Part shown: in pieces, positions 16,179-59,417 of the stretch | Numbering within the stretch: the first letter of the stretch is position 1 | Layout: each line of letters opens with the position of its first letter | NCBI GenBank assembly: GCA_963965975.1 | Contig: OZ014421.1 | Location: 1,741,001 to 1,805,000, forward strand | Direction: 5' to 3' | Source of the DNA: Xestospongia bergquistia | Lineage: Eukaryota; Porifera; Demospongiae; Haplosclerida; Petrosiidae | Length of the DNA: 64,000 nucleotides | The notes under the pieces: generated by a model | Databases searched by the model: none | What the model was told of the DNA's origin: nothing | Seen by the model: the letters and a program-made list of their open reading frames with translations, nothing else | Position numbers and translations under genes: made by a program

Positions 16179-19100
16179 TTAAATGGTTTCATTGAAGTAT
16201 GTTATGATCTCTGACATTGTCGGACGTTCTCTACGATTCTCTTTCAAACATCGTTCAAGAAGAGCTTTAAACATTGGTCGTCTAATACTGTTAATATGAA
16301 GTTGTCTCTGAGCTACCTCAGGAATACGACGGATCATCATTTCAATCAAGACAACACCATAACTGTAAACATCCATTGCAGGAGAATGGTCTCTTGGTAC
16401 ACCAGCTTCTGGAGCAGAATAAACTGGATTACCTGGATTGACTGTATGACCAATCATTGGTTGAAGATTAGCTGAACCATAGTCTGATACCTTGGCTCTC
16501 CACCCACCACTAATTGGCTGAAGAAGGATATTAGCAGTGCTAACATCTCTATGTAGTATTGGGTCTGGTTTAAAGAGGTGGAGATAGTTGAGACCACAGG
16601 CTATATCTTGACTGATAGCTAAAACAGCATGATAAGGTAGAGGACCAGCTTCTAGCTCTTTGCGAAGACTAGTTGGCATTAGTTCTGAGAGGATGATAGG
16701 AGTACCCACTCGAGTGGCTCCTATGAACTGAAGGAGATTAGGATGACGTACTCGAGCAGCAATCTCCATTTCTCGTGTAAAAACTGATATGTTATATGGT
16801 GACAGGATAACTTCATAAAGACATTTGGCAGCTACTCTAAGGCCTCGAAATTTAGCCACCTTGACGTCTCCCCAACCTCCTTTCCCAAGGATCTCCTCAG
16901 TCATCTCAATCTCCTCCTTCCTTACTACCCAGTGAGACTGTTGTTGTAACTGTTGAACTTGTTGTTGAAGAGTGGCTATAGTACGTTGTCTTTGTTGAAG
17001 AGCGGTGGTTGAGCCCTGTAATTGTTGATGAAAATTATCACGTTCTTGACATAGTATTCTTTCCCTCTCTTGACTATCCTGTAACTGTCGTCTTTCTCTC
17101 TCTTCTTGATCTTGTAGTTGTTGTTGAAGTAACCTTTCTCTATTTCTGTGCTCAAGTTCAAGAGTAGCTTGAGTTTGTTGTTTCTCTTGAAGTTCTTGAC
17201 GTAATTGATGTAGTTGTCTTTCTTTTGTTTGAAGGTCCTCTTGAAGAGCTCTTGTCATATCTATCTGCTGTTGTTTGGTATCTTGTAGCTCTTTGTTGGT
17301 AACTTCAAGTTGTTGTGTTAAACATTGAATTTCTCTATCTTTCTCTTGTAAATCTTGACGTGATGAAGATGAAGGTTGAAGATGTGTAGGAGATTGGACA
17401 GTAAGTTGAGGTTGTCCATGTCTCTTCTGTTGTAGCTTAAGTTGATATTCTTCAGTAGATGTCAGGTTAGTTATTACATCTCCTACAGTCCACTGGTCAT
17501 CACTACATACTACAGTGAGAGATATAGTATGTTACAATAGTATTGAGTTATGAGACTAGTTTGTAATATAAACAGTTAATGTGTCAATACTCCTATATCA
17601 TACTGTGATAATACTGATAATGTGTGTATGTACTATATAACAAATACTATCATCAATAGACAGTACTTACTAAGTTCTATCACTGTAGTATCATTGAGTT
17701 GACCACCATAGTATCCTCCAAATTGTACTACCCATACAGTGGTAGGTGACACATTCCATAATGAGAGGGAGTGGCTATCTCTCATAGCCACTGAATCTGG
17801 TATATTGAGCTATAAGATGGAATATAGTGTACTATATGACATTATAATAATGATGTTATGATATTACTACAAAACTAGTCATTATACATGTAACATCAGT
17901 GGATACATGTACTCTAGTAACAGACTATAACTTTGTATCAACTGGTAGAGTTGACATGTTACAATACTTTAAAACATGAACATAAGTACTTATGTACAGT
18001 CTTTAATAACTGAATTATAACTATAAACAAATCAGATATATCAATAGACTATACTATCATAAACGTTAACATACTATAGTGTCAGGACTACAGGTATAAA
18101 ACCAGGTCAAAAAAACAATGACTATTATTAATTATAAATTTTCTATAGATGAGGGTTATTTTCAGAGGTCAAAGTTCAAATAGTCACATATTATTATATT
18201 TCCTCATATTATAGATCATAGACATTAACTCACTTTGTGTTAGACATTTGGCAGCCACTCTGAGGCCACGAAATTTAGCCATCTTGACTTCTCCCCAACC
18301 TCCTTTCCCAAGAATCTCCTCAGTTATCTCAATCTCCTCTTTCCTCACCACCCAGTGAGACTGTTCTTGTAACTGTTGAACTTGTTGTTGTAGAGTGGCT
18401 ATAGTATGTTGTCTTTGTTGAAGAGCAGTGGTTGAGCTCTCAAATTGTTGTCGAAAATTATCACGTTCTTGACATAGTTGTCTTTCCCTCTCTTCTTGAT
18501 CTTGTAGTTGTTGTTGAAGTGACCTTTCTCTATTTCTGTGCTCATGTTCAAGATTAGCTTGAGTTTGTTGTTTCTCTTGAAGTTCTTGATGTAGTTGATG
18601 TAGTTGTCTTTCTTTTGTTTGAAGGTCCTCTTGAAAAGCTCTTGTCATATCCATCCGTTGTTGTTTGGTATCTTGTAGCTCTTTGTTGGTAACTTCAAGT
18701 TGTCGTGTTAAACGTTGAATTTCTCTATCTTTCTCTTGTAATTCTTGACGTGGTGAAGATGAAGGTTGAAGACGTGTAGGAGATTGGACAGTAAGTTGAG
18801 GTTGTCCATGTCTCTTCTGTTGTAGCTTAAGTTGATATTCTTCAGTAGATGTCAGGTTAGTTATTACATCTCCTACAGTCCACTGGTCATTATTACATAC
18901 TACAGTGAGAGATATAGTATGTTACAATAGTATTGAGTTATGAGACTAGTTTGTAATATAAACAGTTAGTGTGTCAATACTCCTATATCATACTGTGATA
19001 ATATTGATATTGTGTGTGTGTACTATATAACAAATACTACCATCACTTACTAAGTTCTATCACTGTAGTATCATTGAGTTTACCATCAGAGATTCTAAAT

Positions 19101-21817
19101 CCTCCAAATTGTATTACCCATACAGTGGTAGGTGACACATTCCATAATGAGAGGGACTGGCTCCATCTCATAGTCACTGACTCTGGTATATTGAGCTATA
19201 AGATGGAATATAGTGTACTATATGACATTATAATAATGATGTTATGATATTACTACAAAACTAGTCATTATACATGTAACATCAGTGGATACATGTACTC
19301 TAGTAACAGACTATAACTTTGTATGAACTGGTAGAGTTGACATGTTACAATACTTTAAAACATGAACATAAGTACTTATGTACAGTCTTTAATAACTGAA
19401 TTATAACTATGAACAAATCAGATATATCAATAGACTATACTATCATAAATGTTAACATACTATAGTGTCAGGACTACAGGTATAAAAACAGGTCATAAAA
19501 ACAATAACTATTATTAATTATAAATTTTCTATAGATGAGGGTTATTTTAGAGGTCAAAGTTCAAATAGTCACACTTTATTATATCTCCTCATATTGTAGA
19601 TCATAGACATTAACTCACTTTGTGTTAGTGTTAGGTCACATGATAACTAGTAACTAACCTTTGTCCATGTCTTTGTATCAATGTTAAATAACCAGCTGTC
19701 ACCAATAGAATGGATGAATCCATAATGTCCACCTACCATCATCACATGTAGGTCACTAATAATAATGATAGCATGATCATATCTACTCCGAGGCCAATTC
19801 ACTGATTTGTGATGTGGTTTACTTATCTTCTCCCAGTGCTGGGTAGATAATATTCAAGTTAACATATTATACAATTAACATAGCAGTAATTAATACTGTA
19901 TACTGGGAAATGTTTAAGAATATTCTTCATTTTATAGTTTATGTCAATTTTAATTTAGTTACAATATTTCCTTTAATAAGACCTGGGACATCTATTTTAA
20001 TATTGAACAACAATAGGGAAATTTACTATTTGAGGTCACTATTTAAAATATAATTGTGAATTATTAAAGTTTCTAGAGTTAGAAGTGATTCTGAACATTC
20101 ATGATAAACAATAGCTTTAAACTTTGTGTATCAGTTAGTAAATGATAGATCAAGCATTGACAGAAATTTTAAGCAAATATTACCTCATTGTGAACTCATT
20201 TGTTTAAGGACTTTATGAAACTACAGTTATTTCCTGACTGAATAAACATTTTTAAAAAATAAAAATTATCTTTTTTTGTCTTTTTCACTTAACAGAACAA
20301 CTTAATATTAATTAATATAATATTATACATATTATTATAATATATATAATATTAATATTAATAATCAATTATAAATTATCAATAGACAATTTTGTTAAGC
20401 AGTCATTGTATCATTTATTCTAGCTCATCATCAATTTCACTGATATACAAAAAGGGAGGCTACTATTCAAGAGTGACATTTAGTAAATGAAATATGGTAT
20501 CACTATATAGTTGACTAAATGAATGTTTCAGTTATCAATATAATCTCTAAGTTGATTAAAGAAATATTAACAAACAATAAATCACTTGTTTATTAATAAA
20601 ACAGTTCCTAATAATAATATAAAGACATTATATACTATAAATTTAGTTCATTTAATAATATCAAACTTTAAACTTGATTACTCCACAATATTATACAGTA
20701 ACTAAATACTTTAACTTAATACATATTGTACTCACCACTGCAGTCTTTGTACACTGAGCAATATACACAGTGTTATTATAACGATCAGGAGTCTTACCAC
20801 CAAATAACAGAGCTCTGTTATTAGGTAGTGATGTAAGAGTAAAGCCATTACAAGGAGGTGGATATTCTCCAGTAATTTCTGGTACTATCCACTGACCTGA
20901 AATACAAACAGTTATAAAATTGTACTTGATATATAATGTATTAATAACATGATATATTGATCTTCTTACCACTGGATAACTGATAATAGTGGTGTTCATT
21001 AGTACGAACTTTACCATAATCATCACTATACTGAGCACCAGGTTGTGGAGAGGTAGGACGTGGACCAATACCACCAACTACCAGTAGATAATCCACTTCA
21101 TTGAATGTAAGTGATATCATCCTACAGCTTGACTTCATCATTGGACCCATACTTGGATTAGTTGGGAACAGTTCATTCCATGTAAGTGAATCTGTTATTA
21201 ATGAGTTGACACTATTGTGACAACAATGGTCATGATTACAACGTCCTCCAAAATAGTAGATCCTGTTACTGATAACAGTGGAGGCATAGCCCAAGATACC
21301 CAGTGGAGGTTTTCCATTAGTAGGTCGTTGTTCCCATCTACCAGTTGGTAAGTGAAATAATTCAATAACAGAGGTCATCCCCTGTTTGACTTCATTATCA
21401 TGTACTATAGGGAGACCATCTATATCACCACCCCACATGTAGAGGTAGTCACCCACTATATGTGTGGAGTGATATGACCTCTTTGTAGGTACATAATAAT
21501 CTGTAGAACATGACACACACACACATATAACAATAGATAAGTATTATAATAATGTAGTCAAACCTGATCTAGACGTAGCCAGATTTTCCTTCAAATAGAC
21601 CCGCCCTTAATAATGAGTTCTCAGTTATTTTAATTGAATACTTACAAGTTTCATCATAATCACAAACTGGTATACCAAAGGCTTGTCCAAGTCCAAAGTC
21701 AGCCAGTTTAATAGCTCCTTTAGCATCAATTAACAGATTTTGTGGTTTTAAGTCACAATAAATAATACATCGACAATGACAGAAAGCTGTACCTTTGAGG
21801 ATCTGGTAAGTATAACT
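16179..21817 (-). CDS. Kelch propeller-coiled coil-TKL kinase, copy A (with CDK1-exon fusion at 5' end)
   Basis: Exons: 20970-21500 (blades 1-3), 20736-20896 (blade 4), 19659-19838 (blade 5), 17671-17809 (blade 6), 16179-17509 (Gln/Glu-rich coil and kinase). These sum to one open frame of about 780 codons. Kinase motifs: GKGGWGDV loop, VAAK lysine, [11 protein letters not shown] catalytic loop, DYG in place of [15 protein letters not shown]; this pattern is TKL-like, and all catalytic residues are present. Upstream, exon 21646-21817 is a CDK1 exon (DLKPQNLL ... [11 protein letters not shown]) joined in phase to blade 1. Between blades 5 and 6 lie duplicated exons: an alternative blade 6 (19051-19195) and a coil plus truncated kinase exon (18234-18899). 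The true start codon is not identified. Confidence 0.82.
16821..19628 (-). repeat. Internal 1.4 kb tandem duplication of kelch/coil exons in copy A
   Basis: 16821-18243 is repeated at 18244-19628. Each copy holds part of the kinase N-lobe, the coiled coil, an intron and one blade-6 exon. The joint at 18243/18244 fuses an intron (ending TTTGTGTTAG on plus) to the middle of the kinase exon. The second kinase piece therefore stops after VAAKCL and runs into intron sequence (TQSELMS..., stop at 18184). Confidence 0.88.
19841..20735 (-). repeat. Conserved intron block between blades 4 and 5
   Basis: About 890 bp of AT-rich intron, with a TA-rich palindromic stretch near 20310-20370. It is nearly identical at 28235-29125, 35310-36205, 45377-46264 and 57749-58641, and in part at 50700-51255. 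It has no ORF. Its similarity is as high as that of the exons, which points to recent duplication or gene conversion across the array. Confidence 0.8.
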
Positions 21818-22187
21818 CTATTAATATAAGAAATAATGAAGTTAATAATAATATTAACAATAGAACATTTATAATAAATATAACTACTATAATGTATGGT
21901 CATTGTAGATTGGTCACCTATCTATACATCCATATAATCATTTATATGTTTGTCCATTAATACATTTATCTATTGATCCATCTATCCATTTGTCAATCCA
22001 TGTATCCATTTATCAAACCATGTATCCATTATTACTATGATCATTACCTTTAATAATACTGGATCAATATATTGTCCTGATAGAATAGTGTCGAGATATT
22101 TTTTAAATCCATACTAATGAATTCAAAAACAAGATCTTGGAATCTATAGAACTTGGAATTTTGATGAATTATCTTATCAAGTCTGTA

Positions 22188-25992: not shown

Positions 25993-28900
25993 TTAAATGG
26001 TTTCGTTGAAGAATTTTATGATTACTGACATTGTCGGACGTTCTCTACGATTCTCCTTCAAACATCGTTCAACAAGAGCTTTAAACATTGGTCGTCTAAT
26101 ACTGTTAATATGAAGTTGTCTCTGAGCTACCTCAGGAATACGACAGATCATCATTTCAATCAAGACAACACCATAACTGTAAACATCCATTGCAGGAGAA
26201 TGGTCTCTTGGTACACCAGCTTCTGGAGCAGAATAAACTGGATTACCTGGATTGACTGTACGACCAATCATTGGTTGAAGATTAGCTGAACCATAGTCTG
26301 ATACCTTGGCTCTCCACCCACCAACAATTGGCAGTAACAGAACGTTAGCAGTGCTAACATCTCTATGTAGTATAGGGTATGGTTTAAAGAGGTGGAGATA
26401 GTTGAGACCATAGGCTATATCTTGACTGATAGTCAGAACAGCAGGATAAGGTAGAGGACCAGCTTCTAGCTCTTTGCGAAGACTAGTTGGCATTAGTTCT
26501 GAGAGGATGATAGGAGTACCCACTTTAGTGGCTCCTATGAACTGAAGGAGATTAGGATGACGTACTCGAGCAGCAATCTCCATTTCTCGTGTAAAAACTG
26601 ATATGTTATATGGTGACAGGATAACTTCATGAAGACATTTGGCAGCTACTCTAAGGCCACGAAATTTAGCCACCTTGACTTCTCCCCAAACTCCTTTCCC
26701 AAGAATGTCCTCAGCAATCTCAATCTCCTCCTTCCTCACCACCCAGTGAGACTGTTCTTGTAACTGTTGAACTTGTTGTTGAAGAGTAGCATTAGCTTGA
26801 CGTGATTGTTGAAGAGCAGAGGTTGACTCTTGGAGTTGTTGACGTAGATCTTGTTCAATATTGTCATGTTGTTGACGATAATCGTCATGTTCTTGGTGAA
26901 GGTCATCACACTCTTGACGTAGTGCTCTTTCTCTCTCTTGACTATCTTGTAGCTGTTGTTGAAGTATAGCTTGAGTTTGTTGTTTCTCTTGAAGTTCTTG
27001 ATGTAGTTGATGTAGTTGTCTTTCTTTTGTTTCAAGGTCCTCTTGAAGAGCTCTTGTCATATCTATCTGCTGTTGTTTGGTATCTTGTAGCTCTATATTG
27101 GTAACTTCAAGTTGTTGTGTTAAAAATTGAATTTCTTTATCTTTCTCCGGTAATTCTTGACCTGATGAAGATGGAGGTTGAAGATGTGTAGGAGATTGGA
27201 CAGTAAGTTGAGGTTGTCCATGTCTCTTCTGTTGTAGCTTAAGTTGATATTCTTCAGTAAATGTCAGGTTAGTTATTACATCTCCTACAGTCCACTGGTC
27301 ATCATTACATACTACAGTGAGAGATATAGTATGTTACAATAGTATTGAGTTATGAGACTAGTTTGTAATATAAACAGTTAATGTGTCAATACTCCTATAT
27401 CATACTGTTATAATTCTGATAATGTGTGTGTGTGTACTATTTTGCAAATACTATCATTGACAGATAGTACTTACTAAGTTCTATCACTATAGTATCATTG
27501 AGTTTACCATTATAGAATCCTCCAAATTGTACTACCCATACAGTGGTAGATGACACATTCCATAATGAGAGGGAGTGGTTCCATCTCTTAGTCACTGACT
27601 CTGGTATATTGAGCTATAAGATGGAATATAGTGTACTATATGATATTATAATAATGATGTTATGATATTACTACAAAACTAGTCATTATACATGTAACAT
27701 CAGTGGATACATGTACTCTAGTAACAGACTATAACATTGTATGAACTGGTAGAATTGACATTTTACAATACTTTAAAACACGAACATATGTACTTATGTA
27801 CAATCTTTAATAAGTGAATTATAACTATAAACACATCAGATATATCAATAGACTATACTATCATAAATGTTAACATACTATAGTGTCAGGACTACAGGTA
27901 TAAAACCAGGTCAAAAAAACAATGACTATTATTAATTATAAATTTTCTATAGATGAGGGGTTATTTTCAGAGGTCAAAGTTCAAATAGTCACACTTTATT
28001 ATATCTCCTCATATTGTAGATCATAGACATTAATTCACTTTGTGTTAGTGTTAGGTCACATGATAACTAGTAACTAACCTTTGTCCATGTCTTTGTATCA
28101 ATGTTAAATAACCAGCTGTCATATCCACCCATCATCATCACATGTAGGTCACTGATAATAGTAGTAGCATGATCATATCTACTCTGAGGCCAATTCACTG
28201 ATTTGTGAAGTGGTTCACTTATCTTCTCCCAGTGCTGGGTAGATAATATTCAAATTAACATATTATACAATTAACATAGCAGTAATTAATACTGTATACT
28301 GGGAAATGTTTAAGAATATTCTTCATTTTATAGTTTATGTGGATTTTAATTTAGTTACAATATTTCCTTTAATAAGACCTGGGACATCTATTTTAATATT
28401 GAACAACAATAGGGAAATTTACTATTTGAGGTCACTATTTAAGATATAATTGTGAATTATTAAAGTTTCTAGAGTTAGAAGTGATTCTGAACATTCCTGA
28501 TAAACAATACCTTTAAACTTTGTGTATCAGTTAGTAAATGATATATCAAGCATTGACAGAAATTTTAAACAAATATTACCTCATTGTGAACTCATTTGTT
28601 TAATGACTTTATGAAACTACAGTTATTTCCTGACTGAATAAACATTTTTAAAAAATAAAAATTATCTTTTTTGTGTGTTTTCCACTTAACATAACAACTT
28701 AATATTAATTAATATAATATTATACATATTATTATTATATATATAATATTAATATTAATAATCAATTATAAATTATCAATAGACAATTTTGTTAAGCAGT
28801 CATTGTATCATTTATTCAAGCTCATCATCAATTTCACTGATATACAAAAAGGGAGGCTACTATTCAAGAGTGACATTTAGTCAATGAAATATGGTATCAC

Positions 28901-30078
28901 TATATAGTTGACTAAAGGAATGTTTCAGTTATCAATATAACCTCTAAGTTGATTAAAGAAATATTAACAAACAATAAATCACTTGTTTATTAATAAAACA
29001 GTTCCTAATAATAATATAAAGACAACTATAAATTTAGTTCATTTAATAATATCAACTTTAAACTTGATTACTCCACAATATTATACAGTAACTAAATACT
29101 TTAACTTAATACATATTGTACTCACCACTGCAATCTTTTTACACTGAGCAATATACGCAGTGTTAATATAACCATTAGGAGTATTACCACCAAATAACAT
29201 AGCTCTGTTATTAGGTAGAGATGTAAGAGTGAAGCTACGACAAGGAGGTGGACATTCTCCACTAATATCTGGTATTATCCACTGACCTGAAATACAAACA
29301 GTTATAAAATTGTACTTGATATATAATGTATTGATAACATGATATATTGATCTTCTTACCACTGGATAACTGATAATAGTGGTGTTCATTAGTGCGAACA
29401 TTACCACCATAAGCATCACTATACTGAGCACCAGCTTCTGGAGAGGTAGGACGTGGACCAATACCACCAACTACCAGTAGATAATCCACTTTATTGAATG
29501 TAAGTGATATCATCCCACAGTCTGACTTCATCATTGGACCCATACTTGGATTAATTGGGAACAGTTCATTCCATGTAAGTGAATCTGTTATTAATGAGTT
29601 GACACTATTGTGACGACACTGGCCATGATTACAACGTCCTCCAAAATAGTAGATCCTGTTACTGATAACAATAGAGGCATAGCCATAGACACCCAGTGGA
29701 GGTTTGCCATTAGTAGGTCGTTGTTCCCATCTACCAGTTGGTAAGTGAAATACCTCAATAACAGAGGTCATCTTCCGTTTGACTTCATTATCATGTACTC
29801 TAGGGAGACCATCTATATTACCACCCCACATGTAGAGGTAGTCACCCACTATATGTGTGGAGTGACCATACCTCTTTGTAGGTACATAATAATCTGTAGA
29901 ACATGACACACACACACATAACAATAGATAACTATTATATTAATGTAGTCAAACCTGATCTAGATGTAGCCATCCCCATCTTTTCTTTTCAAAATAGACA
30001 CGCCCTTAATAATGAGTTCTTAGTTATTATAATTGATGACAACTCTCTACTTACAAGTTCCATCATAAAACATATAAT
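25993..30078 (-). CDS. Kelch propeller-coiled coil-TKL kinase, copy B
   Basis: Exons: 30055-30078 (possible short leader, YMFYDGT), 29360-29893 (blades 1-3), 29126-29286 (blade 4), 28079-28234 (blade 5), 27475-27613 (blade 6), 25993-27311 (coil and kinase). The last five give one open frame of 769 codons. The coil (about 331-520) is rich in Q, E and R with repeated LQQQLQ and RQQHD motifs. Kinase (about 525-769): [44 protein letters not shown]. No signal peptide or membrane helix, so it should be cytosolic. Blade 5 is the shortest of the set (GGYDSWLF). The CDK1-like gene upstream leaves only about 115 bp of spacer. Confidence 0.83.
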
Positions 30079-33093: not shown

Positions 33094-36000
33094 TTAAATG
33101 GTTTCATTTAAGTCTGTAAGGATCTCTGACATTGTCGGACGTTCTCTACAATTCTCTTTCAAACATCGCTCAATAAGAGCTTTAAACATTGGTCGTGTAA
33201 TACTGTTAATATGAAGTTGTCTCTGAGCTACCTCAGGAATACGACAGATCATCATTTCAATCAAGACAACACCATAACTGTAAACATCCATTGCAGGAGA
33301 ATGGTCTCTTGGTACACCAGCTTCTGGAGCAGAATAAACTGGATTACCTGGATTGACTGTACGACCAATCATTGGTTGAAGATTAGCTGAACCATAGTCT
33401 GATACCTTGGCTCTCCACCCACCAACAATTGGCAGTAACAGAACGTTAGCAGTGCTGACATCTCTATGTAGTATTGGGTCTGGTTCAAAGAGGTGGAGAT
33501 AGTTGAGACCACAGGCTATATCTTGACTGATAGTCAGAACAACAGGATAGGGTAGTGGACCAGCTTCTAGCTCTTTGCGGAGACTAGTTGGCATTAGTTC
33601 TGAGAGGATGATAGGACCACCCACTTTAGTGGCTCCTATGAACTGAAGGAGATTAGGATGACGTACTCGAGCAGCAATCTCCATTTCTCTTGTAAAAACT
33701 GATATGTTATATGGTGACATGATAACTTCATAAAGACATTTCGCAGCTACTCTCAGGCCACAAAATATAGCCACCTTGACTTCTCCCCAACCTCCTTTCC
33801 CAAGAACTTCGTCAGTCATCTCAATCTCCTCCTTCCTCACTACCCAGTGAGACAGTTTTTGTAACTGTTGAACTTGTTGTTGTAGAGTGGCATTAGCTTG
33901 ATGTGTTTGTTGAAGAACAGTAGTTGACTCTTGGATTTGTTGACGAAGACCTTGTTCAATATTATCATGTTGTTGACGATAATCATCATGTTCTTGGTGA
34001 AGGTCATCACACTCTTGACGTAGTACTCTTTCTCTCTCTTGACTATCTTGTAGCTGTTGTTGAAGTATAGCTTGAGTTTGTTGTTTCTCTTGAAGTTCTT
34101 GATGTAGTTGATGTAGTTGTCTTTCTTTTGTTTGAAGGTCCTCTTGAAGAGCTCTTGTCATATCTATCTGCTGTTGTTTGGTATCTTCAAGTTGTCGTGG
34201 TAAACATTGAATTTCTCTGTCTTTGTCTTGTAATTCTTGACGTGATGAAGATAAAGGTTGAAGACGTGTAAGAGATTGGACAGTAAGTTGAGGTTGTCCA
34301 TGTCTCTTCTGTTGTAGCTTAAGTTGATATTCTTCAGTAAATGTCAGGTTAGTTATTACATCTCCTACAGTCCATTGGTCATCATTACATACTACAGTGA
34401 GAGATATAGTATGTTACAATAGTATTGAGTTATGAGACTAGTTTGTAATATAAACAGTTATTGTGTCAATACTCCTATATCATACTGTTATAATGTGTGT
34501 GTGTACTATATAACAAATACTATTATCAATAGACAATACTTACTAAGTTCTGTCACTGTAGTATCATTGAGTTTACCACCTAAGCATCCTCCAAATTGTA
34601 TTACCCATACAGTGGTAGGTGACACATTCCATAATGAGAGGGATTGGCTCCACCTCTTAGTCACTGACTCTGGTATATTGAGCTATAAGATGGAATATTG
34701 TGTACTATATGACATTATAATAATGATGTTAATGATATTACTACAAAACTAGTCATTATACATGTAACATCAGTGGATACATGTACTCTAGTAACAGACT
34801 ATAACTTTGTATGAACTGGTAGAGTTGACATTTTACAATACTTTAAAACATGAACATAAGTACTTATTTACAATCTTTAATAACTGAATTATAACTATAA
34901 ACAAATCAGATATATCAATAGACTATACTATCATAAATGTTAACATACTATAGTGTCAGAACTACAGGTATAAAACCAGGTCATAAAAAAACCTATTATT
35001 AATTATAAATTTTCTATAGATGAGGGTTATTTTCAGAGGTCAAAGTTCAAATAGTCACACTTTATTATATCTCCTCATACTGTAGATCATAGACATTAAC
35101 TCACTTTGTGTTAGTGTTAGGTCACATGATAACTAGTAACTAACCTTTGTCCATGTCTTTGTATCAATGTTAAATAACCAGCTGTCATATGTACCAATTC
35201 CACCCATCATCATCACATGTAGGTCACTGATAATAGTGGTAGCATGACAATCTCTACTCTTAAGCCAATTCACTGATTTGTGAAGTGGCTCACTTATCTT
35301 CTCCCAGTGCTGGGTAGATAATATTCAAGTTAACATATTATACAATTAACATAGCAGTAATTAATACTGTATACTGGGAAATGTTTAAGAATATTATTCA
35401 TTTTATAGTTTATGTGGATTTTAATTTAGTTACAATATTTCCTTTAATAAGACCTGGGACATCTATTTTAATATTGAACAACAATAGGGAAATTTACTAT
35501 TTGAGGTCACTATTTAAAATATGATTGTGAATTATTAAAGTTTCTAGAGTTAGAAGTGATTCTGAACATTCCTGATAAACAATAGCTTTAAACTTTGTGT
35601 ATCAGTTAGTAAATGATAGATCAAGCATTGACAGAAATTTTAAACAAATATTACCTCATTGTGAACTCATTTGTTTAATGACTTTATGAAACTACAGTTA
35701 TTTCCTGACTGAATAAACATTTTTAAAAAATAAAAATTATCTTTTTTGTGTTTTTCACTTAACAGAACAACTTAATATTAATTAATATAATATTATACAT
35801 ATTATCATTATATATATAATATTAATATTAATAATCAATTATAAATTATAAATAGACAATTTTGTTAAGCAGTCATTGTATCATTTATTCAAGCTCATCA
35901 TCAATTTCACTGATATACAAAAAGGGAGGCTACTATTCAAGAGTGACATTTAGTCAATGAAATATGGTATCACTATATAGTTGACTAAAGGAATGTTTCA

Positions 36001-37153
36001 GTTATCAATATAACCTCTAAGTTGATTAAAGAAATATTAACAAACAATAAATCACTTGTTTATTAATAAAACAGTTCCTAATAATAATATAAAGACATTA
36101 TATACTATAAATTTAGTTCATTTAATAATATCAAACTTTAAACTTGATTACTTCACAATATTATACAGTAACTAAATACTTTAACTTAATACATATTGTA
36201 CTTACCACTGCAGTCTTTGTACACTGAGCAATATACACAGTGTTAATAGGACAATTAGGAGTAAGACCACCAAATAACAGAGCTCTGTTATTAGGTAGTG
36301 ATGTAAGAGTGAAGTGACTACAAGGCGGTGGGCATTCTCCAGTAATATCTGGTATTATCCACTGACCTGAAATACAAACAGTTATAAAATTGTACCTGAT
36401 ATATAATGTATTGATAACATGATATATTGATCTTACCACTGGATAACTGATAATAGTGGTATTCATTAGTACGAACAATACCACCAAATGTTCCCTTATT
36501 ACTATACTGAGCACGAGATTGTGGAGAGGTAGGACGTGGACCAATACCACCAACTACCAGTAAATACTCCACTTTATTGGATGTAAGTGATATCATCCCA
36601 CAGTGTGACTTCATCATTGGACCCATACTTGGATTAGTTGGGAACAGTTCATTCCATGTAAGTGAATCTGTTATTAATGAGTTGACACTATTGTGACGAC
36701 ACTGGCCATGATTACAATAGCCTCCAAAATAGTAGATCCTTTTACTGATAACAGTGGAAGCATAGCCAATGACACCAAATGGAGGTTTTCCATTAGTAGG
36801 TCTTTGTTCCCATCTACCAGTTGGTAAGTGAAATACCTCAATAACAGAGGTCATCCTCTGTTTGACTTCATTATCATGTACTCTAGGGAGACCATCTATA
36901 TTACCACCCCACATGTAAAGGTAGTCACCCACTATATGTGTGGAGTGACCATACCTCTTTGTAGGTACATAATAATCTGTAGAACATGACACACACACAC
37001 ATAACAATAGATAACTATTATAATAATGTAGTCAAACCTGATCTAGACGTAGCCAGCTTTTCTTTAAAATAGACACGCCCTTATTAATGAGCTCTCAGTT
37101 ATTATAATAGAGGACAACTCTCTACTTACAAGTTCCATCATAAAACAAGTAAT
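33094..37153 (-). CDS. Kelch propeller-coiled coil-TKL kinase, copy C
   Basis: Exons: 37130-37153 (short leader, YLFYDGT), 36437-36976, 36206-36366, 35145-35309, 34544-34682, 33094-34391. The last five sum to 767 codons plus stop with no break. Blades end WGG, FGG, VGG, FGG, MGG, FGG. The coil lacks 21 nt near its start relative to copy B. Kinase: [36 protein letters not shown]; one oddity is FCGLRVAAK in place of FRGLRVAAK. The activation segment ([15 protein letters not shown]) equals that of copy B. Downstream on the opposite strand lies SHIPPO copy S3, about 220 bp from the stop. Confidence 0.84.
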
Positions 37154-37811: not shown

Positions 37812-37865
<54 letters not shown>

Positions 37866-43058: not shown

Positions 43059-46000
43059 TTAAATGGTTTCATTGAAGTCTGTTAGGATCTCTGACATTGT
43101 TGGACGTTCTCTACAATTCTCCTTCAAACATCGTTCAATAAGGGCTTTAAACGCTTGTCGTCTAATACTGTTAATATGAAGTTGTCTCTGAGCTACCTCA
43201 GGAATACAACAGATCATCATTTCAATCAAGACAACACCATAACTGTAAACATCCATTGCAGGAGAATGGTCTTTTGGTACACTAGCTTCTGGAGCAGAAT
43301 AAACTGGATTACCTGGATTGACTGTACGACCAATCATTGGTTGAAGATTAGCTGAACCATAGTCGGATACCTTGGCTCTCCAACTGCATTGACCATGTGT
43401 AAGAAGGACATTAGCAGTGCTGACATCTCTATGTAGTATTGCGTCTGGTTTAAAGAGGTGAAGATAGTTGAGACCACAGGCTATATCTTGACTGATAGTC
43501 AGAACAACAGGATACGGTAGAGGAGCAGTTTCTAGCTCTTTACGAAGACTAGTTGGCATTAGTTCTGAAAGGATGATAGGAGTACCCACTCGAGTGGCTC
43601 CTATGAACTGAAGGAGATTAGGATGACGTACTCGAGCAGCAATCTCCATTTCTCGTATAAAAACTGATATGTTATATGGTGACAGGATAACTTCATGAAG
43701 ACATTTGGCAGCTACTCTAAGGCCACGAAATTTAGCCACCTTGACTTCTCCCCAACCTCCTTTCCCAAGGATCTCCTCAGTCATCTCAATCTCCTCCTTC
43801 CTCACTACCCAGTGAGACTGTTGTTGTAACTGTTGAACTTGTTGTTGAAGAGTGGCTATAGTATGTTGTCTTTGTTGAAGAGCAGTGGTTGACTCTTGGA
43901 GTTGTTGGCGAAGATCTTGTTCAATATTGTCACGTTGTTGACTATAATCATCATGTTCTCGGTGAAGATTATCACACTCTTGACGTAGTACTCTTTCCCT
44001 CTCTTGACTATCCTGTAACTGTCGTCTTTCTCTCTTTACTTGATCTTGTAGTTGTTGTTGAAGTAACCTTTCTCTATTTCTGTGCTCATGTACAAGATTA
44101 GCTTGAGTTTGTTGATTCTCTTGAAGTTCTTGATGTAGTTGATATAGTTGTCTTTCTTTTGTTTCAAGGTCCTCTTGAAGAGCTCTTGTCATATCTATCT
44201 GCTGTTGTTTGGTATCTTGTAGCTCTTTGTTGGTAACTTCAAGTTGTCGTGTTAAACGTTGAATTTGTCTATCTTTCTCTTGTAATTCTTGACGTGATGA
44301 AGATGAAGGTTGAAGATGTGTAGGAGATTGGACAGTAAGTTGAGGTCGTCTATGTCTCTTCTGTCGTAGCTTAAGTTGATATTCTTCAGTAGATAGCAGG
44401 TTAGTTATGACATCTCCTACAGTCCACTGGTCATCATTACATACTACAGTGAGAGATATAGTATGTTACAATAGTATTGAGTTATGAGACTAGTTTGTAA
44501 TATAAACAGTTAATGTGTCAATACTCCTATATCATACTGTGATAATACTGATAATGTGTGTGTACTATATAACAAATACTTACTAAGTTCTATCACTGTA
44601 GTATTATTGAGATTAGATTTCATCGCTAAACTTGTTCTTCCCCCAAATTGTATTACCCATACAGTGGTAGGTGACACATTCCATAATGAGAAGGAATGGC
44701 CAAATCTCCTAGTCACTGACTCTGGTATATTGAGCTATAAGATGGAATATAGTGTACTATATGATATTATAATAATGATGTTATGATATTATTACAAAAC
44801 TAGTCATTATACATGTAACATCAGTGGATACATGTACTCTAGTAACAGATTATAACTTTGTATGAACTGGTAGAGTTGACATGTTACAATACTTTAAAAC
44901 ATGAACATAAGTACTTATGTACAGTCTTTAATAACTGAATTATAACTATAAACAAATCAGATATATCAATAGACTATACTATCATTAATATTAACATACT
45001 ATAGTGTCAGGACTACAGGTATAAAACCAGGTCATAAAAACAATAACTATTATTAATTATAAATTTTCTATAGATGAGGGTTATTTTAGAGGTCAAAGTT
45101 CAAATAGTCACACTTTTTATATCTCCTCATATTTTAGATCATAGACATTAACTCACTTTGTGTTAGTGTTAGGTCACATGATAACTAGTAACTAACCTTT
45201 GTCCATGTCTTTGTATCAATGTTAAATAACCAGCTGTCAGCAATACATTTTAATGATATATCCATTCCACCCACCATCATCACATGTAGGTCACTGATAA
45301 TAGTGCCAGCATGACGTGATCTACTCTGAGGCCAATTCACTGATTTGTGAAGTGGTTTACTTATCTTCTCCCAGTGCTGGGTAGATAATATTCAAGTTAA
45401 CATATTATACAATTAACATAGCAGTAATTAATACTGTATACTGGGAAATGTTTAAGAATATTCTTCATTTTATAGTTTATGTGGATTTTAATTTAGTTAC
45501 AATATTTCCTTTAATAAGACCTGGGACATCTATTTTAATATTGAACAACAATAGGGGAAATTTACTATTTGAGGTCACTATTTAAAATATAATTGTGAAT
45601 TATTAAAGTTTCTAGAGTTAGAAGTGATTCTGAACATTCCTGATAAACAATAGCTTTAAACTTTGTATATCAGTTAGTAAATGATAGATCAAGTATTGAC
45701 AGAAATTTTAAACAAATATTACCTCATTGTGAACTCATTTGTTTAAGGACTTTATGAAACTACAGTTATTTCCTGACTGAATAAACATTTTTAAAAAATA
45801 AAAATTATCTTTTTTGTGTTTTTCACTTAACAGAACAACTTAATATTAATTAATATAATATTATACATATTATTATAATATATATAATATTAATATTAAT
45901 AATCAATTATAAATTATCAATAGACAATTTTGTTAAGCAGTCATTGTATCATTTATTCAAGCTCATCATCAATTTCACTGATATACAAAAAGGGAGGCTA

Positions 46001-47210
46001 CTATTCAAGAGTGACATTTAGTCAATGAAATATATATAGTTGACTAAAGGAATGTTTCAGTTATCAATATAACCTCTAAGTTGATTAAAGAAATATTAAC
46101 AAACAATAAATCACTTGTTTATTAATAAAACAGTTCCTAATATTAATATAAAGACATTATATACTATAAATTTAGTTCATTTAATAATATCAAACTTTAA
46201 ACTTGATTACTCCACAATATTATACAGTAACTAAATACTTTAACTTAATACATATTGCACTCACCACTGCAGTCTTTGTACACTGAGCAATATACACAGT
46301 GTTAATATCACCATTAGGAGTATCACCACCAAATAACAGAGCTCTGTTATTAGGTAGTGATGTAAGAGTGAAGCTATTACAAGGAGGTGGACATTCTCCA
46401 GTAATTTCTGGTATTATCCACTGACCTGAAATACAAACAGTTATAAAATTGTACTTGATATATAATGTATTAATAACATGATATATTAATCTTCTTACCA
46501 CTGGATAACTGATAATAGTGGTGTTCATTAGTACAAACATCATCGCCATAATCATGACTATACTGAGCACCAGGTTGTGGAGAGGTAGGACGTGGACCAT
46601 ATCCACCAACTACCAGTAGATAATCCACTTTATTGAATGTAAGTGATATCATTCCACAGTGTGACTTCATCATTGGACCCATACTTGGATTAGTTGGGAA
46701 CAGTTCATTCCATGTAAGTGAATCTGTTATTAATGTGTTGACACTATTGTGACGACAGTCATCATGATTACAATAGCCTCCAAAATAGTAGATCCTGTTA
46801 TTGATAACAGTGGAGGCATAATTACAAACACCCTGTGGAGGTTTTCCATTAGTAGGTCGTTGTTCCCATCTACCAGTTGGTAAGTGAAATACCTCAATAA
46901 CAGAGGTCATCTTCCGTTTGACTTCATTATCATGTACTATAGGGAGACCACTCATATCACCACCCCACATGTAGAGGTAGTCACCCACTATATGTGTGGA
47001 GTGATCAGACCTCTTTGTAGGTACATAATAATCTGTAGAACATGACACACACACACATAACAATAGATAACTATTATAATAATGTAGTCAAACCTGATCT
47101 AGACGTAGCCAGCTTTTCTTTCAAATTAGACACGCCCTTAATAATGAGCTCTCAGTTATTTTAATTGAGGACAACTCTCTACTTACAAGTTCTATCATTA
47201 AACAAGTAAT
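43059..47210 (-). CDS. Kelch propeller-coiled coil-TKL kinase, copy D
   Basis: Exons: 47187-47210 (short leader), 46499-47032, 46265-46425, 45197-45376, 44584-44734, 43059-44443. The last five sum to 803 codons plus stop, the longest model here. The extra length is in the coil (an added [15 protein letters not shown]-type block) and in two blade loops (blade 5 GGMDISLKCIADSW, blade 6 GGRTSLAMKSNLNN). Kinase: [38 protein letters not shown]. Before the DYG motif this copy has THGQCSWRAKV where the others have LPIVGGWRAKV. All catalytic residues are kept. It has the highest apparent integrity of the array. Confidence 0.85.
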
Positions 47211-47889: not shown

Positions 47890-47928
<39 letters not shown>

Positions 47929-47985
47929 CACACACACACAGACAGAAAGAGAGAAAGGCAGAGAGAAAGAGAGAGACTGATACCT
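47871..47985. repeat. (GA)n/(CA)n microsatellite in CDK1-like copy 4
   Basis: Interrupted GAGA/GAAA repeats with a short CA run, in the intron between the DFG exon and the LWYR exon of CDK1-like copy 4. Confidence 0.9.
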
Positions 47986-48022
47986 CATGGGTATATGCAC
48001 GAACTACTATACCAAAGGCTCA

Positions 48023-48154
<132 letters not shown>

Positions 48155-48530
48155 CTATTAATATAAGAAATAATGAAGTTAATATAATATTATTAACAAT
48201 AGAACATTTACAATAAATATAACTACTATAATGTATGGTCATTGTAGATTGATCATATGTTCATCCATTTATCCATACAATACATCCATTCATTTATATG
48301 TTTGTACATTAATCAATTTATCTATTGATCCATGTATCCATTTGTCAATCCATGTATCCATTTATCAAACAATGTATTCATTATTACTGTGATCATTACC
48401 TTTAATAATACTGGATCAATATACTGTCCAGATGGAATAGTATCAAGATATTTCTCAAATCCATACTCATGAATTCAAAAACAAGATAGAACTTGTAATC
48501 TTGATGAATTATCTCCTCAAGTCTGCACAA

Positions 48531-50658: not shown

Positions 50659-52318
50659 GTACTCTAGTAACAGACTATAACTTTGTATGAACTGGTATTA
50701 CCTCATTGTGAACTCATTTGTTTAAGGACTTTATGAAACTACAGTTATTTCCAGTTACTGAATAAACATTTTTTAAAAAATAAAAATTATCTTTTTTTGT
50801 GTTTTTCACTTAACAGAACAGCTTAATATTAATTAATATAATATTATACATATTATTATTATATATATAATTTAATATTAATAATTAATTATAAATTATT
50901 AATAGATAATTTTGTTAAGCAGTCATTGTATCATTTATTCAAGCTCATCATCAATTTTATTGATATACAAAAAGGGAGGCTACTATTCAAGAGTGACATT
51001 TAGTCAATGAAATATGGTATCACTATATAGTTGACTAAAGGAATGTTTCAGTTATCAATATAACCTCTAAGTTGATTAAAGAAATATTAACAAACAATAA
51101 ATCACTTGTTTATTAATAAAACAGTTCTTAATAATAATATAAAGACATTATATACTATAAATTTAGTTCATTTAATAATATCAAACTTTAAACTTGATTA
51201 CTCCACAATATTATACAGTAACTAAATACTTTAACTTAATACATATTGTACTCACCACTGCAGTCTTTGTACACTGAGCAATATACACAGTGTTAATAGT
51301 ACCATTAGGAGTATTACCACCAAATAACAGAGCTCTGTTATTAGGTAGTGATGTAAAAGTGAACCTATTACAAGGAGGTGGAGATTCTCCAGTAATTTCT
51401 GGTATTATCCATTGACCTGAAATACAAACAGTTATAAAATTGTACTTGATATATAATGTATTGATAACATGATATATTGATCTTCTTACCACTGGATAAC
51501 TGATAATAGTGGTGTTCATTAGTACGAATATTACCATCATGAACATCACCATACTCAGCACCAGATTGTGGAGAGGTGGGACGTAGACCTTATCCACCAA
51601 CTACCAGTAGATAATCCACTTTATTGAATGTAAGTGATATCATCCTACAGCTTGACTTCATCATTGGACCCATACTTGGATTAGTTGGGAACAGTTCATT
51701 CCATCTAAGTGAATCTGTTATTAATGAGTTGACTCTATTGTGACGACACTGGTCATGATTACAATAGCCTCCAAAATAGTAGATCCTGTTACTGATAATA
51801 GTTGAGGCATAGCCAAAGACACCCAGTGGAAGTTTTCCATTAGTAGGTCGTTGTTCCCATCTACCAGTTGGTAAGTGAAATACCTCAATAACAGACGTCA
51901 TCCTCTGTTTTACTTCATTATCATGTACTATGGGGAGACTATCTATATCACCACCCCACATGTAGAGGTAGTCACCCACTATATGTGTGGAGTGACCAAC
52001 CCTCTTTGTAGGTACATAATAATCTGTAGAACATGACACACACACACACATAAAAATAGATAACTATTATTATAATGTAGTCAAACCTGATATAGACGTA
52101 GCCAGCTTTTCTTTCAAAATAGACACGCCCTTAATAATGAGCTCTCAGTTATTATAATTGATGACAACTCTCTACTTACAAGTTCCATCATAAAACAAGT
52201 AATCTTAGACTATACAAGTTATTTTATTTATTATAATTTATTCCATTCAGATGTATTAGTGTGTGTTAATACAGTATACAGTTAATGATACATAAAATAT
52301 TAATGTTATAATATGTTC

Positions 52319-52565
52319 TTAAGACTGTACTGTATCAGGTAGACCTGACTTGTCTAAATCACTGAAATAAGGATGTTGCATAGCAGTCTTTGCTGACACT
52401 CTCTTCCCAGGATTATAAACCAACATTTGCTGATATTAAAGACACTAGAATTAAAAAGGATCACTGAACAATAACTCACCATTAACAAGTCACAACCTGC
52501 TGCATCAAGTCGAGGACAAATTTGTTTTATTGTCTTTCCAATCCATTTAGGAAAATTTGGTTTAA
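52319..52565 (-). pseudogene. CDK1-like kinase, copy 5 (last two exons)
   Basis: Exons 52319-52429 ([14 protein letters not shown] ... [13 protein letters not shown], stop) and a partial LGTPNDT-type exon from 52480 up (KWIGKTIKQICPRLDAAG). At about 52565 the exon is cut and joined to the 3' flank of the death-domain block. Confidence 0.88.
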
Positions 52566-55196: not shown

Positions 55197-55470
55197 ATAA
55201 CATTATACTTTATATTGTTAATATAACTGTATGTCAGTCAATAATACTATCTTTTGAGATAAAACTTTCTCTATGAACACTCTCTCTCTATAAATAGTCT
55301 GGTATTCCCTTCTCTAAATGAAAGGGCAGAAGTGTTAGTTAATAATTTAAACATTCACTTCTCTGCAAAATGTCCATATATGGTAATATTATTATAATGA
55401 CAATAGCTAAACTATTATAATAACCTCACTACTAAAATTATAACACACACTAGTATACTATTAAATGGTT

Positions 55471-58400
55471 TCATTGGAAGTCTGTTATGATCTCTGACAT
55501 TGTCGGACGTTCTCTACGATTCTCTTTCAAACATCGCTCAATAAGAGCTTTAAACATTGGTTGTCTAATACTGTTAATATGAAGTTGTCTCTGAGCTACC
55601 TCAGGAATACGACAGATCATCATTTCAATCAAGACAACACCATAACTATAAACATCCATTGCAGGAGAATGGTCTTTTGGTATACCAGCTTCTGGAGCAG
55701 AATAAACTGGATTACCTGGATAGACTGTATGCCCAATCATTGGTTGAAGATTAGCTGAACCATAGTCTGATACCTTGGCCCTCCACCCACCACCAATTGG
55801 CAGTAACAGAACGTTAGCAGTGCTGACATCTCTATGTAGTATTGGGTCTGGTTTAAAGAGGTGGAGATAGTTGAGACCACAGGCTATATCTTGACTGATA
55901 GCTAAAACAGCATGATAGGGTAGAGGACCAGCTTCTAGCTCTTTGCGAAGACTAGTTGGCATTAGTTCTGAGAGGATGATAGGAGTACCCACTTGAGTGG
56001 CTCCTATGAACTGAAGGAGATTAGGATGACGTACTCGAGCAGCAATCTCCATTTCTCTTGTAAAAACTGATATGTTATATGGTGATAGGATAACTTCATG
56101 AATACATTTGGCAGCTACTCTAAGGCCACGAAATTTGGCCACCTTGACTTCTCCCCAACCTCCTTTCCCAAAAACTTCATCAGTCATCTCAATCTCTTCC
56201 TTCCTCACTACCCAGTGAGACTGTTCTTGTAACTGTTGAACTTGTTGTTGTAGAGTGGCATTAGCTTGATGTGTTTGTTGAAGAGCAGTAGTTGACTCTT
56301 GGAGTTGTTGACGAAGACGTTGTTCAATATTATCATGTTGTTGACGATAATCATCATGTTCTTGGTGAAGGTCATCACACTCTTGACGTAGTACTCTTTC
56401 ACTCTCTTGACTATCTTGTAGCTGTTGTTGAAGTAACCTTTCTCTATTTCTGTACTCAAGTTCAAGATTAGCTTGAGTTTGTTGTTTCTCTTGAAGTTCT
56501 TGACGTAGTTGATGTAGTTGTCTTTCTTTTGTTTGAAGGTCCTCTTGATAAGCTCTTGTCATATGTATCTGCTGTTGTTTGGTATCTTGTAGCTCTTTGT
56601 TGGTAACTTCAAGTTGTTGCGTTAAATGTTGAATTTCTCTATCTTTCTCTTGTAATTCTTGACGTGATGAAGATGAAGGTTGAAGATGTGTAGGAGATTG
56701 GACAGTAAGTTGAGGTTGTCCATGTCTCTTCTGTTGTAGCTTAAGTTGATATTTTTCAGTAGATGTCAGGTTAGTTATTACATCTCCTACAGTCCACTGG
56801 TCATCGTTACAAGCTACAGTGAGAGATATAGTATGTTACAATAGTATTGAGTTATGAGACTAGTTTGTAATATAAACAGTTAATGTGTCAATACTCCTAT
56901 ATCATACTGTGATAATACTGATAATGTGTGTGTGTACTATATAACAAATACTATCATCAATAGACAATACTTACTAAGTTCTATCACTGTAGTATCATTG
57001 AGTTCACCATCAGGGTATCTAAGTCCTCCAAATTGTATTACCCATACAGTGGTAGTTGACACATTCCATAATGAGAGGGAGTGGCTCCATCTCTTAGTCA
57101 CTGACTCTAGTATATTGAGCTATAAGATGGAATATAGTGTACTATATGACATTATAATAATGATGTTATGATATTACTACAAAACTAGTCATTATACATG
57201 TAATATCAGTGGATACATGTACTCTAGTAACAGACTATAACTTTGTATGAACTGGTAGAGTTGACATGTTACAATACTTTAAAACATGAACATAAGTACT
57301 TATGTACAGTCTTTAATAACTGAATTATAACTATAAACAAATCAGATATATCAATAGACTATACTATCATAAATGTTAACATACTATAGTGTCAGAACTA
57401 CAGGTATAAAACCAGGTCATAAAAACAATAAATATTATTAATTAGAAATTTTCTATAGATGAGGGTTATTTTCAGAGGTCAAAGTTCAAATAGTCACACT
57501 TTATTATATCTCCTCATATTGTAGATCATAGACATTAACTCACTTTGTGTTAGTGTTAGGTCACATGATAACTAGCAACTAACCTTTGTCCATGTCTTTG
57601 TATCAATGTTAAATAACCAGCTGTCATATCTACCAATTCCACCTACTATCATCACATGTAGGTCACTGATAATAATGGTAGCATGATAACGTCTACTCTG
57701 AGGCCAATTCACTGATTTGTGAAGTGGTTTACATATCTTCTCCCAGTGCTGGGTAGATAATAATCAAGTTAACATATTATACAATTAACATAGCAGTAAT
57801 TAATACTGTATACTGGGAAATGTTTAAGAATATTCTTCATTTTATAGTTTATGTGGATTTTAATTTAGTTACAATATTTCCTTTAATAAAACCTGGGACA
57901 TCTATTTTAATATTGAACAACAATAGGGAAATTTACTATTTGAGGTCACTATTTAAAATATAATTGTGAATTATTAAAGTTTCTAGAATTAGAAGTGATT
58001 CTGAATATTCCTGTTAAAAATAGCTTTAAACTTTGTATCAGTTAGTAAATGATAGATCAAGCATTAACAGAAATTTTAAACAAATATTACCTCATTGTGA
58101 ACTCATTTGTTTAAGGACTTTATCAAAATACAGTATTTCCTGACTGAATAAACATTTTTAAAAAATAAAAATTATCTTTTTTTGTGTTTTTTACTTAACA
58201 GAACAACTTAATATTAATTAATATAATATTATACATATTATTATTATATATATAATATTAATATTAATAATCAACTATAAATTATCAATAGACAATTTTG
58301 TTAAGAAGTCATTGTATCATTTATTCAAGCTCATTATCAATTTCACTGATATACAAAAAGGGAGGCTACTATTCAAGAGTGACATTTAGTCAATGAAATA

Positions 58401-59417
58401 TGATATCACTATATAGTTGACTAAAGGAATGTTTCAGTTATCAATATAACCTCTAAGTTGATTAAAGAAATATTAACAAACAATAAATCACTTGTTTATT
58501 AATAAAAAAGTTCCTAATAATAATATAAAGACATTATATACTATAAATTTTGTTCATTTAATAATATCAAACTTTAAACTTGATTAATCCACAATATTAT
58601 ACAGTAACTAAATACTTTAACTTAATACATATTGTACTCACCACTGCAGTATTTGTACACTGAGCAATATACACAGTGTTAATATCACCATTAGAGGTAT
58701 CACCACCAAATAACAGAGCTCTGTTATTAGGTAGTGATGTAAGTGTGAAGTTACTACAAGGAGGTGGATATTCTCCAGTAATTTCTGGTATTATCCACTG
58801 ACCTGAAATACAAACAGTTATAAAATTGTACTTGATATATATTTTGTATTAATAACATGATATATTGATCTTCTTACCACTGGATAACTGATAATAGTGG
58901 TGTTCATTAGTACGAACATTACCACCAACTGTTCCCTTATCACTATACTGAGCACCAGGTTGTGGAGAGGTAGGATGTGGACCAATACCACCAACTATCA
59001 GTAGATAATCCACTTTATTAAATGTAAGTGATATCATCCCACAGTGTGACTTCATCATTGGACCCATACTTGGATTAGTTGGGAACAGTTCATTCCATGT
59101 AAGTGAATCTGTTATTAATGAGTTGACACTATTGTAATGACACTGGTCATGATTACAATAGCCTCCAAAATAGTAGATCCTGTTACTGATAACAGTGGAG
59201 GCATAGTCCAAGACATCCAGTGGAGGTTTTCCATTAGTAGATCGTTGTTCCCATCTACCAGTTGGTAAGTGAAATACCTCAATAACAGAGGTCATCTTAC
59301 GTTTGACTTCATTATCATGTACTATAGGGAGACCATTCATATCACCACCCCACATGTAGAGGTAGTCACCCACTATATGTGTGGAGTTACCATACCTCTT
59401 AGTAGGTACATAATAAT
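55471..59417 (-). CDS. Kelch propeller-coiled coil-TKL kinase, copy F
   Basis: Exons 58878-59417, 58642-58802, 57584-57748, 56975-57119, 55471-56813: 784 codons plus stop in one frame. A 1-nt insertion shortens the C-terminus by a few residues (DFQ* in place of DFNETI*). The coil is of intermediate length. Kinase: [38 protein letters not shown]. Blade 1 has NSTH in place of HSTH. The unit breaks at about 59540, so the short leader exon and any promoter are lost or elsewhere. It is the right-hand edge of the array. Confidence 0.82.

Follow-up and report, generated by a model that had tools for sequence, protein, structure and literature searches.

Why do neighbouring copies of one gene, nearly identical over most of their length, differ sharply at a few scattered positions? 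The question is raised by a 64,000-nucleotide stretch of contig C11 (OZ014421.1) of the sponge Xestospongia bergquistia (C11:1741001-1805000; hereafter the window), which carries a tandem series of genes joining a kelch propeller to a protein kinase. We analyzed five window copies (A, B, C, D and F) and a relic (E), together with relatives from the genome searched (146 Mb in 21 contigs). Three Wnt loci and a single nuclear-receptor ligand-domain locus were detected in this genome, counts compatible with an early-branching animal. The reading that we favor, with a probability of roughly 0.6, is that these genes encode cytosolic recognition kinases in which a KLHDC-like pocket is under strong diversifying selection and the kinase output is conserved.

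Each of the five copies has five conserved coding exons (ex2–ex6) on the minus strand, as identified by blastn with the exons of copy D. In copy D, ex2 encodes kelch blades 1–3, ex3–ex5 encode blades 4–6, and ex6 encodes a linker, a coiled coil and the kinase; coiled coil and kinase form the C-terminus of the family proteins, and the window proteins measure 766–802 residues after the leader. Blades were assigned by sequence register and by aligning the proteins with kelch chains of known structure. By sequence, the solved propellers nearest to the family are KLHDC3 (1.7e-19), kelch-bearing dynein heavy chains and KLHDC2, with the KLHDC2 alignment spanning profile positions 4–302 of 334 (E 1.6e-13), in keeping with a six-bladed propeller of the KLHDC type. 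A Pfam scan of copy D, run on ex2, ex3 and most of ex6, returned only kelch families (PF24681 above cut-off on ex2) and Pkinase (2.1e-31 on 43059-44192), and found no BTB, BACK, NACHT/NB-ARC or leucine-rich repeat (LRR) domain in these parts. The solved chain closest to the kinase is TAK1 (1.8e-21), and the other best matches are LysM receptor kinases, CTR1, RAF, FERONIA and IRAK4. Among the 22 ex6 copies with a recognized start (nine others lack one), the motifs HRDV, SDYG and SAPE were read in 20, with DYG replacing DFG; the other two copies are frameshifted. No membrane segment is evident in the five window proteins, in which the 19-residue Kyte-Doolittle mean peaks at 1.66.

Where a ligand would sit was predicted with a contact register drawn from the literature and not from the variable sites. 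It comprises the two residues before strand A of each blade (x1 and x2) and the first, third and sixth residues after the Gly-Gly pair (GG+1, GG+3 and GG+6), giving 24 codons over six blades when derived from KLHDC3 and 30 when KEAP1 is included. The KEAP1 contacts, which we take to lie at x1, x2, GG+1, GG+3 and GG+6, were placed on the KEAP1 sequence by published residue numbers. Ligand-contact residues of KEAP1 are named in the accessible portion of PMC6891428, which in one place prints Gly530. For KLHDC3, the available text of PMC11568203 names Arg240, Ser241, Arg292, Arg293, Phe182, Asn16, Arg198 and Asp97, and all eight fall at x1, x2, GG+1 or GG+3 of the printed chain once a one-residue numbering offset makes the letters agree. 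The same text prints both Asp16 and Asn16 (the chain has Asn) and also names Val115 and Thr309, which were left out of the register check.

The gene sample consisted of 32 close genes out of at least 84 on C11, namely the five window copies, 20 full loci (L039-L058) and seven partial loci. They were the best ex2 matches to copy D, and the sample leans to close relatives accordingly. Four near-identical members (L051, winB, L034 and L014, the prefix win marking window copies) were dropped to leave 28 distinct genes, 23 of which include ex5; winE and L059-L062 stayed out of the counts, and L063 and L064 were not aligned. Over the 24-column register, the mean pairwise residue difference is 0.635, versus 0.172 overall. 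None of 20,000 random column sets reached this value (maximum 0.383), and shifting the register by −7 to +10 gave 0.08–0.37. By position, the difference is 0.621 at x1, 0.758 at x2, 0.665 at GG+1, 0.497 at GG+3 and 0.525 at GG+6, and it drops to 0.02–0.07 at the residues flanking the x1–x2 pair. The post-Gly-Gly loop is broadly variable, with 0.32–0.46 at GG+2, +4, +5, +7 and +8, chiefly from blades 5 and 6. The Arg-Ser-Arg trio with which KLHDC proteins bind carboxylates is not conserved in the family, its KLHDC3 x1/x2 positions being hypervariable here. An earlier note on this DNA had proposed that the paralogues differ mainly at predicted ligand-binding loops, and these figures bear it out. 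The loop variants that it named are present in the copies, and the indels that it called in-frame are so, the length differences among kelch exons of close copies all being multiples of three. Its blade 2 pair exists at residues 69-70 (winD kelch numbering), one later than written; in its blade 3 pair, the variation is at residue 124, with little change at 125.

Across the 28 genes, nonsynonymous divergence (pN) at the 30 contact codons is 0.361 and synonymous divergence (pS) 0.147, a pN/pS of 2.46. The corresponding values are 0.139 and 0.126 in the remaining BC loops and 0.037 and 0.075 in the other 251 columns (core), and introns diverge by 0.032 and 0.043. Strands and introns are nearly identical, as had been noted, and loop divergence lies above strand, synonymous and intron divergence alike. 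Comparison of codon models M8 and M8a gave twice the log-likelihood difference (2dlnL) of 824 on a tree built from introns plus third positions and of 634 on a coding tree, with omega 8 for 13.5%–14.8% of codons; single exons on their own trees gave 217, 74, 78 and 116. At P(beta>alpha) above 0.9, the neutral tree flagged 39 of 352 columns (16/30 contact, 13/71 other loop, 10/251 others) and the coding tree 38 (16, 12 and 10, respectively). Controls came from ex6 of 13 distinct stop-free genes, in which winB stands for L049 in the motif and M8 run and L049 itself serves in the matched pN/pS run. In these matched genes pN and pS are 0.044 and 0.110 for the kinase (pN/pS 0.40) and 0.059 and 0.092 for the coil; core pN/pS is 0.49, and introns diverge by 0.026–0.039 (one of the four without winA). 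Ten null simulations on four exon trees, with omega 1 in loops and 0.48 elsewhere, yielded 2dlnL of 1.4–13.6 and flagged 1–12 of the 352 columns and 0–4 of the 30 contact columns. Set against these matched controls and the simulated null, the data strongly support the view, put forward earlier as selection on recognition, that the predicted ligand face is under diversifying selection.

Relaxed constraint on decaying duplicates could be read from relic E, from a truncated ex6 in copy A and from the stops and frameshifts of some ex6 copies. We rejected this explanation, which is hardly credible: simulated relaxed loops reach a 2dlnL of 13.6 at most, frames are intact, 83 of the 84 ex2 matches on C11 are stop-free, core and kinase show the low ratios just given, and contact divergence stands far above that of introns. 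Recombination was also considered as the sole source of false positives and rejected, the signal being reproduced neither by per-exon trees nor by exon-shuffled simulations (sub-exon tracts were not simulated).

The tempo of change at the pocket is distinctive. Gene pairs whose introns are 0.5%–1.5% apart (n = 24) have unlike residues at 55% of contact positions but at just 6% of core positions. Two pairs below 0.5% intron divergence show no contact residue difference at all, and over five bins above 0.5% the contact difference is flat at 55%–57%; the pocket is therefore saturated while the remainder is young or homogenized. This bears on whether pocket variation might instead match many endogenous substrates or partners, as a housekeeping repertoire of subfunctionalized paralogues. 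The kinase is conserved, and KLHDC relatives recognize protein C-termini according to the part of PMC11568203 at hand, both of which would suit such a role. Nonetheless, a pocket difference of about 55% at so small an intron distance is very fast for stable partners, and scaffolds that are similar carry 29 distinct contact strings (blades 1–5) among 32 genes; we consider the endogenous explanation unlikely.

The kelch exons are mosaics. In just 2 of 28 genes is the relative closest in ex2 also the closest in ex4; L052 and L054, for example, are 0.8% apart in ex2 and 8.5% in ex4. Divergence at fourfold sites is 0.067 in the loop columns themselves and 0.117 within three codons of the loops, versus 0.038–0.040 at 4–15 codons, and therefore local exchange or mutation contributes. 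These two patterns invite the alternative that loops vary through a local diversifying process, hypermutation or templated cassette exchange, and not through selection. A selection-free process, however, would give pN near pS at the contact codons, where we find a clear excess; the closest 28 pairs listed have only 0–2 synonymous changes there; and at the 30 loop codons with five or more kinds of residue, conservation is highest at the third base (modal frequency 0.81 versus 0.66 and 0.61). A purely local origin is on this evidence quite improbable. Exchange alone is likewise insufficient, because it does not produce pN above pS. Given the exon mosaicism and the raised synonymous change beside loops, short-tract exchange between paralogues probably spreads part of the pocket variants, with selection acting at the pocket. 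The codon-level test that the earlier note called for returned a strong signal (2dlnL 634–824), and the note overlooked this probable exchange as part of the variability.

Some further features accompany these patterns. At the same 30 loop codons, half of the residues are Asp, Gly, Tyr or Ser. Third bases are T-rich at variable loop codons (0.625 versus 0.351 in the core), as a preference for Y, D, S, G and N would produce. The NNT codons at variable sites also prompted the mere idea of a retroelement-type mutator of A residues, for which no search was made. The ex3–ex4 intron (28 genes) is least diverged beside the exons (0.019–0.028, the last few columns excepted) and most diverged in its middle (to 0.085), so it is most alike beside the exons although these carry the diversifying sites.

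Several points weigh against selection on a recognition pocket as we describe it. The alignment had already been seen before the register was fixed, and the codon models are home-made and use fixed trees. Positions beyond the register vary too, such as GG+7 (0.459), and 10 selected columns fall outside loops. Conversely, x1 of blade 3 and GG+6 of blades 1 and 3 show no variation or almost none, and GG+3 of blades 2 and 4 varies little. Synonymous change is likewise elevated at the contact codons, and the fourfold excess beside the loops has been mentioned above. Kinase and coil also favor M8, more weakly (2dlnL 32 and 57). Lastly, besides the two frameshifted ex6 copies among the 22, five have one stop (that of copy F at the extreme end).

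The family is large. A search with the ex2 protein found at least 84 kelch ex2 copies at 71% identity or more in the 0.07–2.3 Mb region of C11; they form five clusters, and 59 of them belong to the largest. For 78 of the 84, a kinase match lies 1.5–6.5 kb downstream on the same strand. Together with the preserved kinase motifs and the absence of an evident membrane segment, this fits the tandem family of intracellular sensor kinases proposed in the earlier note. By hand count, stops occur in 1 of the 84 ex2 matches and 5 of the 84 kinase matches; these C11 counts exclude C11:2791222 (43%) and two kinase matches at 48%. A further seven ex2 matches lie on C1, C4 and C14 (65%–83% identity). A second set comprises at least 67 ex2 matches at 52% or more to L063, chiefly on C5 and C1, with stops in 6 of 67; kinase matches of 53%–59% are likewise present on C1 and C5. 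The genome-wide hand count is at least about 158 related exon matches, a lower bound, as each search scored its best 150 candidates at most.

A second kinase subfamily (62%–68% to the copy D kinase) occurs in 14 of the 78 kelch-kinase pairs on C11. Four of these 14 adjoin kelch exons of the close type (81%–86%), at L041, C11:245998, 1484260 and 1705247, where the kinases are 65%–68% identical to that of copy D; this suggests recombination of pockets with kinases between copies. There are also near-identical gene pairs on C11, winB/L049 (0.2% difference across kelch codons), L040/L014, L054/L034 and L050/L051. In three of the four pairs, the partners are oppositely oriented and separated by 0.3–0.5 Mb, which points to large inverted duplications of recent date.

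Numerous tandem copies, a predicted binding surface under diversifying selection and a conserved output domain are together what characterizes diversified recognition receptors. Based on these findings, we propose a plausible mechanism. A six-bladed propeller of the KLHDC2/KLHDC3 kind would bind a peptide or protein end as its probable ligand, in a pocket predicted to consist of the residue pair preceding strand A and the post-Gly-Gly loops of every blade. The coiled coil would probably pair proteins, and the conserved tyrosine kinase-like (TKL-like) kinase, which is similar to TAK1, RAF and IRAK kinases and presumably active with DYG in place of DFG, would send one common signal. Selection would preserve scaffold and kinase and drive amino-acid change in the pocket, such that copies would differ in specificity, with tandem duplication and short gene-conversion-like exchanges supplying and reshuffling pocket variants. 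We infer that non-self sensing is the likeliest cause, with pathogen molecules as first candidates and allorecognition second. Germline-encoded recognition genes that are hypervariable and arranged in tandem typify allorecognition loci, and the animal is a sponge; the family might accordingly serve the fusion of individuals, or gamete conflict, in place of defense. This appears improbable, since proteins with no evident membrane segment are ill suited to allorecognition by contact, unless they work with a partner receptor. A bolder version of the recognition-kinase proposal is that about 150 kelch-kinase genes form a germline repertoire, a cytosolic immune or self/non-self system of an early-branching animal. 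The propeller pocket would there take the role of an LRR or MHC groove, very short exchanges would move variants, and pockets would be joined to one or the other of two kinase subfamilies; we advance it tentatively, at somewhat less than even odds.

NLR repertoires of animals, plants and fungi, as well as plant receptor-like kinases, combine many germline copies, variable recognition and conserved signaling. Unlike them, the present family has a kelch pocket instead of LRRs, no evident membrane segment, and no NACHT or LRR in the scanned parts. An NLR repertoire of a demosponge is the subject of PMC12909245, as far as the excerpt consulted goes. Of the C-degron receptors KLHDC2, KLHDC3 and KLHDC10, KLHDC3 and KLHDC2 are among the closest solved propellers, and KLHDC3 contacts lie at equivalent blade positions; as far as the accessible sources go, these receptors are E3 substrate receptors with a fixed pocket of the Arg-Ser-Arg type, whereas here the pocket is hypervariable and is followed by a coiled coil and a kinase. 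The nearest functional parallel that we can cite is the fast-diversifying set of F-box and MATH-BTB adaptors of Caenorhabditis, which also show selection on the recognition domain. In C. elegans, strong positive selection is reported to act on their substrate-binding and not their Cullin-binding domains, and they were proposed as detectors of foreign proteins (PMC4334554, in the part available); their output is ubiquitin ligation, in contrast to the kinase here. Choanoflagellate GPCR-TKL/K proteins are abundant receptors that unite a sensor with a TKL-related kinase, but their sensors are seven-transmembrane and not kelch (PMC12716839, partial text). In Rhizophagus irregularis, high-copy kinase and Kelch-like genes were proposed to serve perception; the accessible part of PMC8647823 gives them as separate families and mentions no fused gene or pocket pattern. 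A sponge challenge study (PMC6208332, partial text) lists two 'Kelch motif containing' genes, at most candidate members of the present family, whose fold changes were negative upon exposure to microbial patterns. We found no description of a kelch-kinase family in literature on sponges, kelch, kinases, TKL, allorecognition and selection, as represented by titles and the beginnings of abstracts, with sparse coverage of subscription papers and preprints; a kinome survey may have it. If our reading is correct, a kelch pocket wired to a kinase would be a new molecular solution among the few germline-diversified recognition systems, and this in an animal lineage in which little is known about the receptors of immunity and allorecognition. 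With 30 defined pocket positions and a sharp selection signal, the proposal can be tested directly on named residues.

Table 1 Kelch-kinase copies and domains in the window (window coordinates)
Feature	Position	Strand	Exons or content	Basis
Copy A	16179..21500	-	ex2 21500-20970, ex3 20896-20736, ex4 19838-19659	blastn of copy D exons, splice-site check, translations
Copy A 3' exons		-	first ex5 19195-19051, truncated ex6 18899-18242, second ex5 17809-17671, intact ex6 17509-16179	
Copy B	25993..29893	-	ex2 29893-29360, ex3 29286-29126, ex4 28234-28079, ex5 27613-27475, ex6 27311-25993	open reading frame
Copy C	33094..36976	-	ex2 36976-36437, ex3 36366-36206, ex4 35309-35145, ex5 34682-34544, ex6 34391-33094	open reading frame
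Copy D	43059..47032	-	ex2 47032-46499, ex3 46425-46265, ex4 45376-45197, ex5 44734-44584, ex6 44443-43059	open reading frame
Kinase domain of copy D	43059..43844	-	TKL-like; VAAK, HRD, DYG replacing DFG, APE	
Blades 1-3 of copy D	46499..47032	-	hold contact-register residues 8, 9, 25, 69, 70, 91, 124, 144	
Relic E	51256..52023	-	ex2 52023-51490 with one stop, ex3 51416-51256, ex5 piece 49368-49273	
Copy F	55461..59417	-	ex2 59417-58878, ex3 58802-58642, ex4 57748-57584, ex5 57119-56975, ex6 about 56813-55461	

Splice sites agree across the five copies, with ex6 starting at CTTG in copy F versus TATG in the others; the C-terminal residues of the copy F kinase are changed (..ITDFQ). No ex4 of relic E was matched by blastn with the copy D exons. 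Copy A (16179-19195, minus strand) has two different blade-6 exons, the first preceding a kinase exon that breaks off once the initial part of the domain has been encoded and the second preceding an intact one, and alternative transcripts are possible. The blade 6 variant RDS / YYGGQ attributed to this copy is present in the second ex5, while the first reads RWS / FRISDGK.

Upstream of ex2, a probable leader exon of about 7 residues (predicted) ends in ..ATSRS, with a GT donor about 61–63 bases before ex2 in most copies; the exact donor motif was not found in nine further copies. Among the 28 copies with the motif, 10 (including B) have an ATG within the open stretch before the donor. Most of the rest (including D, at window positions ~47090-47120, minus strand) have CTG at that codon, and initiation may therefore occur at CTG or elsewhere.

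Other elements share the window. Relic exons, which we presume to resemble a CDK1-type kinase, lie on the minus strand upstream of copies A–E (22048-22184, 30222-30347, 37272-38352, 47329-48527 and 52322-52563), with an extra set at 12415-13388; none were found upstream of copy F. They seem to belong to the tandem unit. A second repeated family, with proteins of about 1,000–1,200 residues, occupies 248-3301, 5713-9300 and 62755-63915 (minus strand), and 5713-9300 gives a weak match to a right-handed beta-helix, below the Pfam cut-off. Two copies of this beta-helix-like family lie in a duplicated block of about 6 kb at the left end of the window, which also holds near-identical retroelement integrase fragments at 4299-5012 and 10298-11011 (minus strand; the rve match of 4299-5012 is below the Pfam cut-off). 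At 40269-40454 there is a tandem repeat with a 58-base unit in 3.2 copies.

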